Below, in pieces: positions 57,159 to 63,708 of a stretch of 64,000 nt of DNA. A program made the position numbers and the translations under genes. Below the pieces are notes generated by a model, which was not told the origin of the DNA, ran no database searches, and saw nothing but the letters and a program-made list of their open reading frames with translations. Numbering within the stretch: position 1 is the stretch's first letter; every line of letters starts with the position of its first letter. Source of the DNA: Terracoccus sp. 273MFTsu3.1 (GTDB lineage Bacteria; Actinomycetota; Actinomycetes; Actinomycetales; Dermatophilaceae); assembly GCF_000383675.1 (NCBI RefSeq), contig NZ_KB911824.1, positions 1-64,000 on the forward strand. The letters run 5' to 3'.

Positions 57159-58340
57159 CTACGACGCCGCCGGCTCGGCGTCTCGTGAGGGTCCTCGCGA
57201 CGCGAGGGCGAGGAGGGCTCCCGCGCCGGCCACGACGCCACAGAGCGGCCACAGCAGACCCGGCGCGGCGGCATACACCATCCCGCCCAGCGGGGCGGAG
57301 AGCATCGTCCCGCTCGTGGCGGCGCCGGTGTAGAGGCCCTGGTACTGGCCGACGAGGTGGGCGGGCGCCGCGTCCAGGACGTGCGCGGTGGCCGTCGTCT
57401 TGTAGAGGATCTCGCCGGCGGTGAGCACCACCATGGCGACGACGGCTGAGGCCGCGACGCCCATCCACGTCAGCCCGAAGATGACGAAACCGACTGCCAC
57501 GAGGGCGTATCCGGTCGCGATGATGGGGATGGCCGGTCGGTCCCGGAGCCAGAGGGCGACGGGGATCTCGAGGGCGAGGATGAGGCCGGAGCCGATCGCC
57601 ACGAGGAGGGTGTAGAGCGCGAGTGGCTGCCCGTGGTCGCGCAGGTGCAGGGGGAGGGTCGAGTAGAGCTGACGGTAGACGAGGTCGACGAGCACGACAC
57701 CGGGCAGGAGCAGCAGGAGGGACCGGTCCGCCCGGAGGGATCGCCAGAGCCCGGCCGGGGCATCGGTCTCAGGGCCGGTGGGCGCCTCCTCGGGCAGGAA
57801 GCGCGACGTGACGTGGCGCAGCACGAGGGTGAGGACGCCGTCGACGACGAAGAGCGTGTCGTAGCCGCGCGTGGCGAGCAGGGCGCCGACGGGAGGCCCG
57901 ATGACGAAGCCCGCGTTGGAGGCGGCGCGACTCACGGCGACCGCCGACCGGCGTGACCCGACCGGCACGGCGAGTGCCGCGAGCGCACCCTGCCCGAGCG
58001 ACGCGACGGCGCCCAGGTAGCCCGTCACCGGCATCGTCACGGCGAGCAGCCACGCCGGCTGCCACGGGATGAGGATCGTGAGGACCCCGACGAGGCTGGC
58101 GGTCAGGAGCAGGACCCGACGGTGGCCGTAGCGGTCGCCGAACCGGCCGCCCGTGACGTTTCCGAGCAGCGCTCCGACACCGTTCGAGCCGGCGATGATG
58201 CCCGCGGGCACGACACCCAGCCCCCGCGGTCCGGTGAGGTAGAGCACGAGGAAGAGCATGAGGAAGGCGCTGGCCGAGCTGACGAAGCGCCCTGCGGCCA
58301 GCACCCAGACGACGCTCGGGAGGTCTCGGAGGTCGCGCAC
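57159..58340 (-). CDS. MFS transporter
   Basis: A 393-residue major-facilitator protein with about 12 helices. GRFGDRYGHRRVLL is the loop 2-3 motif A and GFVIGPPVGALLA is the helix-5 motif C of drug-proton antiporters, so efflux is more likely than uptake. The GTG at 58340 is 53 bp from the divergent HxlR-peroxiredoxin gene, and the shared promoter region suggests control by that protein. Substrate is unknown. Confidence 0.9.
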   Translation of the reverse strand: MRDLRDLPSVVWVLAAGRFVSSASAFLMLFLVLYLTGPRGLGVVPAGIIAGSNGVGALLGNVTGGRFGDRYGHRRVLLLTASLVGVLTILIPWQPAWLLAVTMPVTGYLGAVASLGQGALAALAVPVGSRRSAVAVSRAASNAGFVIGPPVGALLATRGYDTLFVVDGVLTLVLRHVTSRFLPEEAPTGPETDAPAGLWRSLRADRSLLLLLPGVVLVDLVYRQLYSTLPLHLRDHGQPLALYTLLVAIGSGLILALEIPVALWLRDRPAIPIIATGYALVAVGFVIFGLTWMGVAASAVVAMVVLTAGEILYKTTATAHVLDAAPAHLVGQYQGLYTGAATSGTMLSAPLGGMVYAAAPGLLWPLCGVVAGAGALLALASRGPSRDAEPAAS

Positions 58341-58375
58341 CCGGACATCAGACCACAGTGAGTCTCTTTTGGGAA

Positions 58376-58387
58376 CTAAGTTAGGAT
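58376..58387 (+). promoter_or_regulatory. Promoter and possible operator of the HxlR-peroxiredoxin gene
   Basis: TAGGAT (58382-58387) ends 6 nt before GTG 58394. The palindrome CTAAGTTAG (58376-58384) overlaps it, and the whole 53-bp intergenic region is AT-richer than its surroundings. This is a plausible autoregulatory site that could also control the divergent MFS gene. Confidence 0.45.
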
Positions 58388-58393
58388 GAGGAC

Positions 58394-59236
58394 GTGACGA
58401 GGCGACATGCGAGCGCCGTCGACCCGTGCGGCATCGCCCACGCGGTCGGCGTCCTCGGCGACCCGTGGAGCCTGCTCGTCCTGCGTGACGTCGCCGGCGG
58501 ATGCACTCGTTTCGACCAGCTCGTCACCGAGACGGGGATCTCGCGCAAGGTCCTCGCGCAGCGTCTCGACGCCCTCGTCTCCGACGGCGTCCTCGAGCGC
58601 CGCGCCTACTCCGACCGTCCGCCCCGGCACGAGTACGTCCTCAGCGCCCTCGGCCGCGGTGCGCTCCCCGTCCTCGCTGCCCTGCAGGACTTCGGCGACA
58701 CGTGGCTGCTCGGCGACGGGCGCCCGGACGCGGGTGCCGCCGCGGACTCCAACGAGGCCACCCGGGTGAGCAGCCTCGTCGGACAGGCGATCCCGCGACT
58801 GCACACCCTGGATCCCGTCACCGACGAGCCGTTCACGGTGGTCTACTGCTACCCCGGCAACGCGTTCCCCGGGGCCGACGAGATCCCGGGTGGCATCGGC
58901 TGCACGCTCGAGTCGTGCACGTACCGCGACCGTCTCGGCGAGTTCGCGGACCTCGGGGCCTCGGTCGTCGGGGTCTCGACCCAGCGACCGAGGGAGCAGA
59001 CCGAGTTCGCCGCGGCGAACGGCATTCGCTTTCCGCTGCTGTCGGACGCCGACCTCGAGCTGACGACCGCGCTGCGCCTCCCGACCTTCCGCGCGGGCGG
59101 CACGACCCGCCTCAAGCGGCAGACGCTCGTCGTCGACCGCGACCGCGTCGTGCGCGCCACCCTCTTCCCGATCCCGGACGTCACGGGTTCGGTCGAGGAC
59201 GCACTGAGCCTCGTGCGTGGGCTCGGACGCGGCTGA
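58394..59236 (+). CDS. HxlR-type regulator fused to a peroxiredoxin-like domain
   Basis: A 280-residue two-domain protein. Residues 1 to about 110 are a HxlR winged helix (AVGVLGDPWSLLVLRDVAGG, TGISRKVLAQRLDALVSDGV, RHEYVLSALG) with Cys12 and Cys37. Residues about 125-280 are thioredoxin-fold, AhpC/TSA-like (TVVYCYPG, LGASVVGVSTQRPREQTEFA, FPLLSDADLELTTAL). Cys170 and Cys175 in GCTLESCTYRD have the five-residue spacing of the peroxidatic and resolving cysteines of PrxQ/BCP. The usual Thr before the first Cys is missing, and a loop insertion precedes it. A peroxide- or thiol-sensing regulator is inferred. Confidence 0.85.
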   Translation: MTRRHASAVDPCGIAHAVGVLGDPWSLLVLRDVAGGCTRFDQLVTETGISRKVLAQRLDALVSDGVLERRAYSDRPPRHEYVLSALGRGALPVLAALQDFGDTWLLGDGRPDAGAAADSNEATRVSSLVGQAIPRLHTLDPVTDEPFTVVYCYPGNAFPGADEIPGGIGCTLESCTYRDRLGEFADLGASVVGVSTQRPREQTEFAAANGIRFPLLSDADLELTTALRLPTFRAGGTTRLKRQTLVVDRDRVVRATLFPIPDVTGSVEDALSLVRGLGRG

Positions 59237-59247
59237 GGCGCCCGGCG

Positions 59248-62200
59248 TCAGCCGATGACGACGAGCAGGTCGCCACCCTCGACCTGCTGGTGCGCGCCGA
59301 TGGCGACCCGCGAGACGGTGCCACCGGTGGGGCTCGTGATGTTGGCCTCCATCTTCATGGCCTCGATCGTCGCGACGACGCCGCCGGCCTCGACGGTGTC
59401 GCCCTCGGACACCGCGAGGGTGACGACGCCGGCGAAGGGCGCTGCGACCTGGCCCGCGACCCCCACGTCGGCCTTCTCGGCGGACTTGACGTCGGCCTCG
59501 ACGGAGCGGTCGCGGACGGTGATCGGTCGGAACTGCCCGTTGAGGGTGCACATGACGGTGCGCATGCCCTTGGAGTCGGCCTCGCCGATCGACTGGACCC
59601 CGAGGATGAGGCGCTTGCCCGGCTCGATCTCGACCTCGTACTCCTCACCCGCCTCGAGGCCGTGGAGGAACTCGACGGTGCCGAGCACCGAGAGGTCGCC
59701 GTAGGACTCGCGGGAGGTCTCGAACTCCTTCGTCGGTCCGGGGAAGAGCAGCTCGTTGAGCGTGCGTCGCGGGGCGTCGACGAGCGCCTGCTCCTGCTCC
59801 GGCGTCAGCTCGGTGAGCCGCGGCTTGGACTGGCGGCCGGCGAGCGCCTTGGTGCGGAAGGGCTCCGGCCACCCCCCGGGCGGGTCGCCGAGCTCGCCGT
59901 TGAGGAAGCCGATGACGGAGTCGGGGATGTCGTAGCGCTGCGGGTCGTCCTCGAAGTCCTTCGGGTCTGCGCCGGCGCCGACGAGCGCGAGCGCGAGGTC
60001 GCCGACGACCTTGGAGCTCGGCGTCACCTTGACGACGTTGCCGAGGATCCGGTTCGCCGCGGCATACATGTCCTCGATCGCCTCGAAGCGGTCGCCGAGA
60101 CCGAGGGCGATCGCCTGCTGCCGGAGGTTGCTCAGCTGGCCGCCGGGGATCTCGTGGAAGTAGACGCGGCCGGTGGGGGAGTCGAGACCCGACTCGAAGG
60201 GCCGGTAGAGATGACGCACGGCCTCCCAGTAGGGCTCGAGCGCGAAGACGTTCTCGATGTCGAGCCCCGTCGGACGGTCGGTGTCGTCGGTCGCCGCGAC
60301 GAGGGCCGAGAGCGAGGGCTGGCTCGTCGTGCCGGCCATCGTCGCCGTGGCGGCGTCGACGGCGTCGACCCCGGCGTCGATGGCGGCGAGGAGCGTGCCG
60401 ATCTGGCCCCCCGCGGTGTCGTGCGTGTGCAGGTGCACCGGCAGGTCGAAGCGCTCGCGCAGCGCCCGGACCAGCCGGGCGGCAGCCGGCGCGCGGAGGA
60501 GGCCGGCCATGTCCTTGATGGCGAGCACGTGGGCGCCGGTGTCGACGATCTGCTCGGCGAGGTGGAGGTAGTAGTCGAGCGTGTAGAGCTTCTCGCCGGG
60601 GCTCATCAGGTTGCCCGTGTAGCAGAGCGCCACCTCGGCGACCGCGGTGTTCGTCTCGAGCACGGCCTCGACCGCGGGGCGCATCTGGGACACGTCGTTG
60701 AGCGAGTCGAAGATGCGGAAGATGTCGAGGCCCGTCGACGCAGCCTCGCGCACGAAGGCGTCGGTCACGGCCGTGGGGTAGGGGGTGTAGCCGACCGTGT
60801 TGCGCCCGCGCAGCAGCATCTGCAGAGGGATGTTCGGCATCGCCTCACGCAGGGCGGCGAGTCGTTCCCACGGGTCCTCGGCGAGGAAGCGCAGCGCGAC
60901 GTCGTAGGTCGCGCCGCCCCAGGCCTCCATCGAGAGCAGCTGCGGCGTCAGGTGCGAGACGTGCGCGGCGACGTGGAGCAGGTCGCGGGTGCGCATGCGG
61001 GTCGCGAGGAGAGACTGGTGTGCGTCGCGGAAGGTCGTGTCGGTGACGGCGACGTCGTTCGCCTCGCGCAGCGCTCGCGCGAAGGCCGCCGGCCCGTCGG
61101 CGACGAGCCGGTCCCGGGCCCCGCGCGGCAGCGGTGCGTCCGGGAGCCGGGGGAGCTTGGTGCGCGGGCGGACCCGCGTCGTGACCGGGCCGTTGGGCTG
61201 GTTGACCGTGACGTCGGCGAGGTAGGTGAGCAGCTTCGTCGCCCGGTCGGCGCTGACGCGGGCCGAGAGCAGCTCGGGGCGCTCGTCGATGAACGACGTC
61301 GTGGCCAGGCCCTCCTGGAAGACCGGGTCGCCGAGGACCGCCTCGAGGAAGGGGATGTTGGTCGAGACGCCGCGGATGCGGAACTCCGCCAGTGCGCGCT
61401 GGGCCCGGCGCACGGCGATCGGGAAGGTCATCCCCCGGCACGTGAGCTTGACGAGCATCGAGTCGAAGTGGGCGCTGATCTCGGCACCGACGAAGACGGT
61501 CCCACCGTCGAGGCGCACGCCGCTGCCGCCGGCCGAGCGGTAGACGGTGATGGTGCCGGCGTCCGGACGGAAGCCGTTAGCCGGGTCCTCCGTCGTGATC
61601 CGGCACTGCATGGCGAAGCCCTTGGTGCGGATGTCGTCCTGACGCAGGCCCATCGACGCGAAGGTGTCGCCCGACGCGATCTGCATCTGCATGACGACGA
61701 GGTCGATGTCGGTGACCTCCTCGGTCACCGTGTGCTCGACCTGGATGCGGGGGTTCATCTCGATGAAGACGTAGCGCCCGTCCTCACCGAGGAGGAACTC
61801 GACCGTCCCGGCGTTGACGTAGCCGATCGAGCGCGCGAACTCGACGGCGTCGGCGCACATGCTCTCGCGCGTCGCCGCGTCGAGGTTGGGCGCCGGCGCG
61901 ATCTCGACGACCTTCTGGTGGCGGCGCTGGAGCGAGCAGTCACGCTCGTAGAGGTGGACGACCTCGCCCGTGCTGTCGGCGAGCACCTGGACCTCGATGT
62001 GGCGCGGGTTGACCACCGCCTCCTCGAGGTAGAGCGTCGGGTCGCCGAACGCCGACTCGGCCTCGCGCTGGGCGGCCTCGAGCGCGTCGCGCAGGCCCTC
62101 TCGGGCCTCGACGCGGCGCATGCCCCGACCGCCGCCACCGCTGACCGCCTTGACGAAGACGGGAAAGCCGATCTCCTCGGCCGCGGCCTCGAGGGCGTCG

Positions 62201-62622
62201 AGGTCGGTGCCGGGCTCGGAGCCGCGCAGCGTCGGCAGGCCGGCCTCGCGGGCGGCGGCGATGGCGCGGGCCTTGTTGCCCGTGAGGTGCAGCACGGAGG
62301 CCGGGGGGCCGATGAAGGTGATGCCGGCGGCGTCGCACGCCTCGGCGAGAAGGGGGTTCTCCGACAGGAAGCCGTAGCCGGGATAGATCGCGTCGGCGCC
62401 GGCCTCGACGGCCTGGGCGACGATGGCCTCGTGGTCGAGGTAGGCGCGGACCGGGTGTCCCTCGTCGCCGATCTGGTAGGCCTCGTCGGCCTTGAGCCGG
62501 TGCTCGCTCTTGCGGTCCTCGTAGGGGAAGACGGCGACCGTGCGGGCGCCGAGCTCGGTGGCGGCCCGGAAGGCTCTGACGGCGATCTCGCCTCGGTTGG
62601 CGACGAGAACCTTGCGGAACAT
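59248..62622 (-). CDS. pyc: Pyruvate carboxylase
   Basis: A 1124-residue single-chain biotin enzyme that makes oxaloacetate from pyruvate, bicarbonate and ATP. Order: biotin carboxylase (FRKVLVANRGEIAVRAFRAA, KAVSGGGGRGMR, FIEMNPRIQVEHTVTEEVTD), carboxyltransferase (TFRDAHQSLLATRMRT, metal site later with HLHTHDTAGG), and a C-terminal biotinyl domain with EAMKMEA, where Lys1090 carries biotin. GGAGG lies just before ATG 62622. Length is normal. The gene converges with the HxlR-peroxiredoxin gene at an 11-bp gap. Confidence 0.97.
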   Translation of the reverse strand: MFRKVLVANRGEIAVRAFRAATELGARTVAVFPYEDRKSEHRLKADEAYQIGDEGHPVRAYLDHEAIVAQAVEAGADAIYPGYGFLSENPLLAEACDAAGITFIGPPASVLHLTGNKARAIAAAREAGLPTLRGSEPGTDLDALEAAAEEIGFPVFVKAVSGGGGRGMRRVEAREGLRDALEAAQREAESAFGDPTLYLEEAVVNPRHIEVQVLADSTGEVVHLYERDCSLQRRHQKVVEIAPAPNLDAATRESMCADAVEFARSIGYVNAGTVEFLLGEDGRYVFIEMNPRIQVEHTVTEEVTDIDLVVMQMQIASGDTFASMGLRQDDIRTKGFAMQCRITTEDPANGFRPDAGTITVYRSAGGSGVRLDGGTVFVGAEISAHFDSMLVKLTCRGMTFPIAVRRAQRALAEFRIRGVSTNIPFLEAVLGDPVFQEGLATTSFIDERPELLSARVSADRATKLLTYLADVTVNQPNGPVTTRVRPRTKLPRLPDAPLPRGARDRLVADGPAAFARALREANDVAVTDTTFRDAHQSLLATRMRTRDLLHVAAHVSHLTPQLLSMEAWGGATYDVALRFLAEDPWERLAALREAMPNIPLQMLLRGRNTVGYTPYPTAVTDAFVREAASTGLDIFRIFDSLNDVSQMRPAVEAVLETNTAVAEVALCYTGNLMSPGEKLYTLDYYLHLAEQIVDTGAHVLAIKDMAGLLRAPAAARLVRALRERFDLPVHLHTHDTAGGQIGTLLAAIDAGVDAVDAATATMAGTTSQPSLSALVAATDDTDRPTGLDIENVFALEPYWEAVRHLYRPFESGLDSPTGRVYFHEIPGGQLSNLRQQAIALGLGDRFEAIEDMYAAANRILGNVVKVTPSSKVVGDLALALVGAGADPKDFEDDPQRYDIPDSVIGFLNGELGDPPGGWPEPFRTKALAGRQSKPRLTELTPEQEQALVDAPRRTLNELLFPGPTKEFETSRESYGDLSVLGTVEFLHGLEAGEEYEVEIEPGKRLILGVQSIGEADSKGMRTVMCTLNGQFRPITVRDRSVEADVKSAEKADVGVAGQVAAPFAGVVTLAVSEGDTVEAGGVVATIEAMKMEANITSPTGGTVSRVAIGAHQQVEGGDLLVVIG

Positions 62623-62798
62623 CGGACCTCCAGGGTGCCGGGGGCGACGGGTGTGGTCCGCGTCGACCACGGTCGGCAGCCTAGTGGCGGGCCCGTCGCT
62701 CCCGAGAGGGGTGTTCCCATCCGAGACGGGAATGGCTTGGACCGCCCGAGCGTTCCTCCTGCATACTGTGGACTCCACCTCGGTGGGACGCAGAGCAG

Positions 62799-62827
62799 CT
62801 TGACAAGTGAACAGCGTGACGTGGACA
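62799..62827 (+). promoter_or_regulatory. Candidate ssrA promoter
   Basis: A perfect -35 TTGACA (62799-62804) is followed 17 bp later by TGGACA (62822-62827), a poor -10, 8 nt before the mature tmRNA 5' end. An upstream TACTGT (62764-62769) is an alternative. The rest of the gap to pyc (62623-62798) shows nothing clear. Confidence 0.45.
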
Positions 62828-62835
62828 CCCCTCAT

Positions 62836-63202
62836 GGGGGTGATCGGTTTCGACGGTGGTCGACATGCCAGGGGAAGCGGGTCGAGGATGCAGGGTTATC
62901 TCGTAAACGCTCCTTGCAAAACCATAGGTGCCAATTCCAAGCGCACCGACTTCGCCCTCGCCGCCTGAGCGAGCCTCGAAGTCTGTCAGCCTGAGCTAGT
63001 TTCCGACTCAGTGTCTGGCATCAGCTAGGAAACTTGCTGCGCAGTCATGTTGGGGGGCTGCGCGGGACTCTTACTCAACTGGGCCTGTCAGGGGACGTGT
63101 GCGTGCGAGCCCTGGGGCCGAGAAAAGCCATAGCGCACTGCACCCGGAGAAGCCCTGGTTTCTCGTCATCGGACGCGGGTTCAATTCCCGCCACCTCCAC
63201 CA
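62836..63202 (+). ncRNA. ssrA: Transfer-messenger RNA (tmRNA)
   Basis: About 367 nt. The 5' end GGGGGTGATCGGTTTCGACG and the 3' T-arm/acceptor GCGGGTTCAATTCCCGC then CACCTCCACCA form the tRNA-Ala-like domain; the 7-bp acceptor stem pairs with one G-U, and CCA is encoded. The tag frame starts at GCC 62930 and ends at TGA 62966-62968, giving ANSKRTDFALAA. It rescues stalled ribosomes with SmpB (53502). A hairpin follows at 63241. Confidence 0.97.
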
Positions 63203-63306: not shown

Positions 63307-63708
63307 TCAGGCCTGCTCGGTCTGGCCGCTCGGAGCGGCGCCGGCCGCCTCGGCCGCCATCTGCTCCTTGATCGGGGCCATGTCAAGGTTCTTGACCTGC
63401 TCGATGACGTCCTGGAGCGCGGACTGCGGCAGCGCACCGGGCTGGGCGAAGACGAGCACGCCTTCCTTGAAGGCCATCAGGGTCGGGATGGAGGTGATGT
63501 TCGCCGCCGACGCGAGGGACTGCTCGGCCTCGGTGTCGACCTTGCCGAACACGATGCCCTCGTTGTCACCGCTCTGCGAGGCGGCGTCGTAGACCGGGGC
63601 GAACTGTCGACACGGGCCGCACCAGGACGCCCAGAAGTCGACCAGGACGATGTCGTTGTCGAGAACGGTCTTCTCGAAGGACTGCGCGGTCAGGTCAGTG
63701 GTAGCCAT
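63307..63708 (-). CDS. trxA: Thioredoxin
   Basis: A 133-residue thioredoxin with the active site FWASWCGPC (Cys30, Cys33) and the cis-proline segment SIPTLMAF. The C-terminal 25 residues are an extra Ala/Gln-rich tail, so it is longer than E. coli Trx. It is a general cytoplasmic disulfide reductant and could reduce peroxiredoxin-like domains such as the one at 58394. GGGAGAG precedes ATG 63708. Confidence 0.95.
   Translation of the reverse strand: MATTDLTAQSFEKTVLDNDIVLVDFWASWCGPCRQFAPVYDAASQSGDNEGIVFGKVDTEAEQSLASAANITSIPTLMAFKEGVLVFAQPGALPQSALQDVIEQVKNLDMAPIKEQMAAEAAGAAPSGQTEQA

Follow-up and report, generated by a model that had tools for sequence, protein, structure and literature searches.

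The window (the whole 64,000-nucleotide stretch of DNA analysed, from Terracoccus sp. 273MFTsu3.1) contains an open reading frame at 58394..59236 on the forward strand that starts with GTG and encodes 280 residues, in which an HxlR winged-helix domain is followed by a peroxiredoxin (Prx) domain; the assignment draws on the frame, Pfam, the relatives, their alignment and a structure model. Divergent from it, on the reverse strand at 57159..58340, lies an MFS transporter gene, also with a GTG start, whose 393-residue product matches Pfam MFS_1 (E = 1.4e-34) and defines the kind of partner that we call type A. The earlier note had placed the two genes back to back across 53 bp (58341..58393), which is what the reading frames give, and the gap has the same length in all seven genomes compared (six Terrabacter and one Intrasporangium). 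Within it is a putative operator, AGTGAGTCTCTTTTGGGAACTAAGT (58357..58381), which reads as AGTNNGTTCC-N5-GGAACNNACT in the degenerate form that Terrabacter has. Downstream of the fusion, an ORF at 59248-62835 was named by eye as pyruvate carboxylase-like, and a tmRNA gene (62836-63202, tag ANSKRTDFALAA) sits between it and a thioredoxin gene at 63307-63708. The thioredoxin had been proposed as the partner that resets the regulator; the gene is real (TIGR01068, 102.5 bits against a cut-off of 96.8), but a dedicated partnership finds no support. In Terrabacter the gene is 4 kb distant from the fusion.

Pfam places the HxlR domain at residues 20-105 (58451..58708; E = 7.1e-20), and its score for PF01638, 71.1 bits against a cut-off of 20.8, makes the protein a member of that family. 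The AhpC-TSA match covers residues 169-255 (58898..59158; E = 4.3e-15, 56.2 bits against a cut-off of 26). By sequence, the HxlR half is closest in the PDB to 4gcv, and the Prx half to 5epf and 5enu. An AlphaFold2 model of the window protein, made with 53 fusion sequences as input, has a mean pLDDT of 84.4, and its residues 124-279 are predicted to adopt a Prx fold that superposes on 5epf with a Z score of 18.8 and an r.m.s.d. of 2.5 over 145 aligned residues. PrxQ structures in several states rank among the folds nearest to the model, and an AhpE structure after mycothiol exposure (5id2, a 1-Cys Prx) is also found, with a Z score of 16.7, a level at which many Prx families score alike. The fold-search matches shown all fall on the Prx domain, and the HxlR half rests on Pfam and the PDB sequence matches. 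The pLDDT is below 50 for residues 1-16, which include Cys12, and for the linker, residues 104-112. We call the Prx part PrxQ-like only, because the NCBIfam equivalog cut-offs for PrxQ are not reached (NF053650, 40.6 against 260 bits; PRK09437, 32.4 against 140 bits).

The fusion of the two domains is real and no artefact. Two sets of relatives were compiled. Set 1 holds 80 of 94 confirmed named actinobacterial fusion loci, to which the window protein was added to give 81, and one of the two search patterns behind it contained Cys12, a source of bias in this set. Set 2 holds 23 fusions including the window protein (22 without it) that were found by plain similarity without sequence patterns; the two sets share a few genomes, seen as two identical pairs on the tree. 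The search for the same domain pair in other genomes that the earlier note had proposed found it widely, and the genera of set 1 include Terrabacter, Intrasporangium, Janibacter, Knoellia, Micromonospora, Actinoplanes, Nonomuraea, Planotetraspora, Nocardioides, Promicromonospora, Isoptericola and others. Among the matches listed, the closest named relative is that of Terrabacter sp. Root85 (94% identity). In a sample of the class the fusion was found in 20 of 394 genomes, one of them (locus L155) with a disrupted N-terminal part, and in a sample of the phylum the full-length fusion was found in three of 396, all three from the class of the window. Five of 72,556 plasmid records, four from Streptomyces and one from Nonomuraea, match the protein over at least 80% of its length, and the two plasmid records examined for annotation label it only ‘winged helix-turn-helix transcriptional regulator’. 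No description of a fusion of HxlR and peroxiredoxin was found in the open PMC literature, with subscription journals and preprints outside the scope of the search, and the accessible portions of PMC4508579 and PMC6943732 describe none.

Within the genus, six of nine genomes carry the full fusion and the MFS gene 53 bp apart, and two carry neither (one of these genomes is 74% complete). The ninth, G007, has only remnants, residues 263-311 of the MFS protein and, side by side with them, residues 157-226 of the fusion (L009, C3:124090-127299), a pattern that looks as if one deletion took the shared promoter, the MFS start and the HxlR domain. Orthologues with 83-94% identity and an open frame are present in five of the eight other genus genomes, and two genomes of the family have orthologues with 77% and 52% identity. 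An accident that joined two neighbouring genes, by frameshift or by misassembly, had been named in the earlier note as something that would refute its reading. It is refuted by the relatives and is left with practically no probability: the frame is open through both domains in 80 of 80 set 1 loci, as it is in 19 of the 20 genomes with the fusion from the class sample, and the fused proteins form one clade on the tree.

The window protein has five cysteines, among them Cys12 (codon 58427-58429, just N-terminal of the Pfam HxlR domain), Cys37 and, in the AhpC-TSA part, the peroxidatic Cys170 (codon 58901-58903) and the resolving-type Cys175 (codon 58916-58918); these positions are as given earlier. 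The five-residue step from Cys170 to Cys175 is the PrxQ/BCP spacing. PrxQ/BCP proteins carry the motif PxxxTxxC, with a Thr or Ser three residues ahead of the peroxidatic cysteine. In the window protein this residue is Gly167, and the Thr is absent as reported. The absence had been read, with a loop insertion, as a sign of sensing, which does not hold up. Across the 81 fusions of set 1 the residue is Ala in 61, Thr in 14 and Gly in six, and it is Ala in 12 of 14 stand-alone Prx relatives as well, namely in all of those with the extended loop; the loop, too, is shared with these 12 proteins.

Cys12 and Cys170 are each present in 81 of 81 proteins in set 1, and 53 of the 81, as extracted, have exactly two cysteines. 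Cys175 is found in only six and Cys152 in 13. Set 2 agrees, with Cys170 in 23 of 23, Cys12 in all 22 that are readable at that position and Cys175 in eight of 23. Among the fusions that do have Cys175 are those of the window species and its relatives, and both Prx cysteines are kept in all 14 stand-alone Prx relatives, among them the locus L172 and two proteins of ordinary PrxQ type. Cys12 by itself is, on these alignments, a trait of the HxlR family and no proof of a relay, because the stand-alone HxlR relatives, 46 of 46, likewise have a cysteine in this column. What appears peculiar to the fusions is that the resolving cysteine became dispensable, whereas loss of Cys12 or Cys170 was never seen. 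Since these are the sole two cysteines kept throughout the fusions, a relay of oxidation from Cys170 to Cys12 gains in plausibility, and we put it at slightly below even odds. The simplest reading is that Cys12 may be able to take over as the resolving thiol, with mycothiol as the chief alternative in that role. The relay had been drawn earlier to Cys12 or Cys37, and of the two only Cys12 stands. Cys37 is a cysteine in the window species only, the other seven rows of an eight-row alignment having Arg or Ala, and the 81-row alignment of set 1 has no second cysteine in this column; Cys37 was rejected as a general relay partner.

For actinobacterial 1-Cys peroxiredoxins, a mixed disulfide with mycothiol has been proposed. 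The fusion might likewise be a one-cysteine sensor, in which oxidized Cys170 would form a mixed disulfide with mycothiol that alters DNA binding by its shape, with Cys12 as a separate electrophile sensor, so that two signals would be read. The absence of Cys175 from 75 of the 81 set 1 fusions (five of the 75 carry a cysteine at the neighbouring position 174) favours this reading, as do the appearance of AhpE among the fold matches, at a score shared by many Prx families, and the status of Cys12 as a general HxlR residue, seen in the stand-alone relatives and in the accessible text of PMC6943732. It nevertheless leaves unexplained why a Prx should be joined covalently to a domain that itself offers a free sensor thiol, and Cys175 is retained in the window protein; we regard it as unlikely, though with an appreciable chance. 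Signalling could also be allosteric, without any relay: oxidation of Cys170 (with Cys175 where present) would unfold the active-site helix, and the change would pass through the linker to the HxlR dimer, for which Cys12 is unneeded. The several PrxQ states among the folds nearest to the model and the retention of Cys175 in the window species and its relatives are consistent with such a mechanism, but most fusions are without Cys175 and yet were never seen to lose Cys12, and the linker that would carry the change is a low-confidence segment of the model. This we consider quite unlikely.

The history of the domain, as read from the Prx-domain tree (77 rows, 65 fused and 12 stand-alone only), bears on the Cys12 relay. 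The fused Prx domains form one clade (support 100/91), inside which the unfused L172 falls, and the fused or unfused state changes at least twice over the 77 rows. Most simply, this would be one fusion and one later separation, and the tree points to a single origin of the fusion within the sample. The Cys175 column requires a minimum of three changes. L172 (1480-3454, Streptomyces-like) encodes a Prx without HxlR that keeps both Prx cysteines, and it adjoins a divergent type A MFS gene whose product is 46% identical to that of the window. By eye, a same-strand frame downstream in L172 resembles a piece of a MarR protein. The loss of Cys175 after the fusion, together with an unfused protein within the fused clade that has Cys175, would be the trace of a takeover by Cys12. 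We tentatively propose, as a possibility that we hold to be somewhat short of an even chance, a single-chain relay in which the sensor cysteine of the regulator replaced the resolving cysteine of the peroxidase, each reaction with peroxide then switching one promoter.

A palindrome recurs upstream of the fusions; its fullest form is AGTNNGTTCCANNNTGGAACNNACT and its general form GTTCC-N5-GGAAC. With at most one mismatch the general form is found in 72 of 81 set 1 regions, against 0.46 per mononucleotide-shuffled set, and in 17 of the 22 regions of set 2 without the window, against 0.10 per shuffled set. The form GTTCCA-N3-TGGAAC, again with at most one mismatch, is found in 70 of 81 regions, and 20 mononucleotide-shuffled sets gave none so good. 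When whole genomes were searched (nine with the fusion, 3.6-13.6 Mb), the 25-bp form with at most two mismatches occurred at exactly one place in eight of the nine, against none for the reversed control, and in all eight the letters of the match are those beside the fusion; the consensus at this threshold is absent from the ninth, the genome of the window. The left arm has drifted in the Terrabacter form, AGTGAGTCTC-TTTTG-GGAACTAAGT. The first 20 bp of this form, with at most three mismatches, occur once in each of the six genus genomes with the fusion and nowhere in the three without it, and in the alignment of the intergenic regions of seven genomes 16 of 21 site columns are invariant, against 11 of 32 other columns. 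The site in the window is a weak palindrome, with four mismatches to GTTCCA-N3-TGGAAC, and the 53-bp gap contains no perfect inverted repeat of at least 6 bp. A scan of 58250-58480 found no sigma-70-like promoter; in many relatives, as judged by eye, the site is followed by TATAGT or TATACT, spaced from the start as a promoter might be. The palindrome was seen by eye in two tandem copies upstream of the fusion in some Streptomyces (L164, L165, L166 and L183).

The shared promoter region had been named as the likely target of the regulator, and the conserved palindrome found there speaks for it; we infer that the protein binds this site, and it is very probably a local regulator of the adjoining transporter. 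One site per genome also bears on whether the protein could simply have two jobs, as an HxlR electrophile regulator and a working peroxidase with no signal between the halves. Pro154, Thr171 and Arg242 are invariant together with Cys170 (81 of 81 in set 1), the Arg presumably having a catalytic role, and the active site thus looks competent. With a single site per genome, however, the protein would be a dedicated and probably scarce regulator, poorly suited to the bulk removal of peroxide, and we consider two unconnected functions very unlikely.

The transporter on the other side of the site is not always the same. In set 1, 65 of 80 loci have a divergent MFS gene, five of type A and 60 of type B, the latter including L085, whose frame is broken; 13 have no adjacent MFS match and two have remnants only. 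The latter, L081 and L111 (Micromonospora), keep remnants of the start of a type B gene beside an intact fusion and site. The two type B representatives scanned match Pfam MFS_3 and MFS_1, and BLAST detected no similarity between the type A and type B proteins compared (E = 0.079). Set 2 without the window has six loci of type A, seven of type B and, in L171, a type A match at the contig edge, and in eight of the 22 no MFS gene was found within the flank (L157, L161, L162, L165, L166, L168, L169 and L184). In place of it are ABC-2 transporter genes in L165 and L166, a dapD-like gene in L157, L161 and L162 (in the last two by reading only), an O-methyltransferase gene in L168 and an enolase gene in L169; for L184 no partner gene was identified in the flank. 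In the Streptomyces-like loci L157, L161 and L162 the palindrome lies between the fusion and the divergent dapD-like gene. The whole-protein tree falls into two sides: in one, of 23 rows, type A, type B, ABC and other partners are intermingled, and in the other, of 42 rows, the partners are only type B or remnants, or there is no MFS. As judged from these neighbourhoods, one transporter has been exchanged for another next to a regulator and site that stayed the same, which would imply control of export in general and not of the substrate of one transporter.

Taken as a whole, the best explanation, to which we assign a probability of roughly 0.55, is that the fusion acts as a self-contained redox switch on a single local target. 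The HxlR-domain dimer would bind the palindrome at 58357-58381 in the 53-bp gap, and the reduced protein would most likely repress its own gene as well as the divergent transporter gene. In the Prx domain, Cys170 would react with peroxide or a similar oxidant; sensing of thiol redox state through this domain is probable, and we infer that the redox idea of the earlier note was right. Oxidized Cys170 would then be resolved by Cys12, either in the same chain or in that of the partner, directly in the two-cysteine members and by way of Cys175 in Terrabacter. The disulfide would shift the reading heads off the operator, so that the presumed exporter and the regulator are expressed, and thioredoxin or mycothiol/mycoredoxin would reset the protein. 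On this view, an export pump in many soil actinobacteria would be under a compact switch that peroxide operates. A relay within one chain, which in many members has only two cysteines, with a single DNA site and a single target next to it, would offer a minimal model for testing how a peroxide signal reaches DNA, and for a widespread actinobacterial regulator an operator and a transporter target can now be predicted. New here are the conservation of Cys12 and Cys170 only, the GTTCC-N5-GGAAC palindrome and an MFS partner of two dissimilar types.

The fusion resembles the MarR/DUF24 (HxlR) regulators HypR, YodB, CatR and QsrR in its HxlR winged helix, its conserved N-terminal cysteine and its palindromic site, which is putative here. 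HypR, CatR and QsrR are single-domain proteins. According to the accessible text of PMC6943732, HypR, YodB and CatR use the conserved N-terminal cysteine to detect HOCl, quinones and diamide. YodB, as described in the available part of PMC8063818, has 112 residues, prefers the site TACT-7-AGTA and can form an intersubunit disulfide between Cys6 and Cys101'; its second reactive cysteine lies in the same small protein, whereas the second conserved thiol of the fusion is the peroxidatic cysteine of the joined peroxiredoxin. With PrxQ/BCP (M. tuberculosis BcpB, 5epf; the Burkholderia protein, 5enu; Xanthomonas PrxQ) the fusion shares the Prx fold of residues 124-279, the GCT motif at the peroxidatic cysteine, the invariant Arg and, in the window protein, the CxxxxC pair. 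It differs in having a DNA-binding domain and an extended active-site loop, no Thr three residues before the cysteine (in the window protein) and mostly no resolving cysteine. The stand-alone extended-loop peroxiredoxins (for example, Thalassospira WP_101286760 and Agrobacterium WP_174012933; 12 were examined, the best matches with 34-50% identity) have the same loop and GCT motif but no HxlR domain, and keep both Prx cysteines in 12 of 12, as do the two ordinary PrxQ-type proteins.

The closest functional parallels are the relays from yeast Orp1 to Yap1 and from human Prx2 to STAT3, in which, as would be the case here, a thiol peroxidase oxidizes a transcription factor. In the accessible text of PMC7481202, peroxiredoxin relays are argued to need templating: these two operate between separate proteins and need a scaffold (Ybp1 and annexin A2, respectively), and attempts to rebuild the Prx2-STAT3 and Prx2-CRMP2 relays from pure proteins failed. 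The fusion, by contrast, is bacterial and a single chain, and in the putative relay it would carry its own scaffold.
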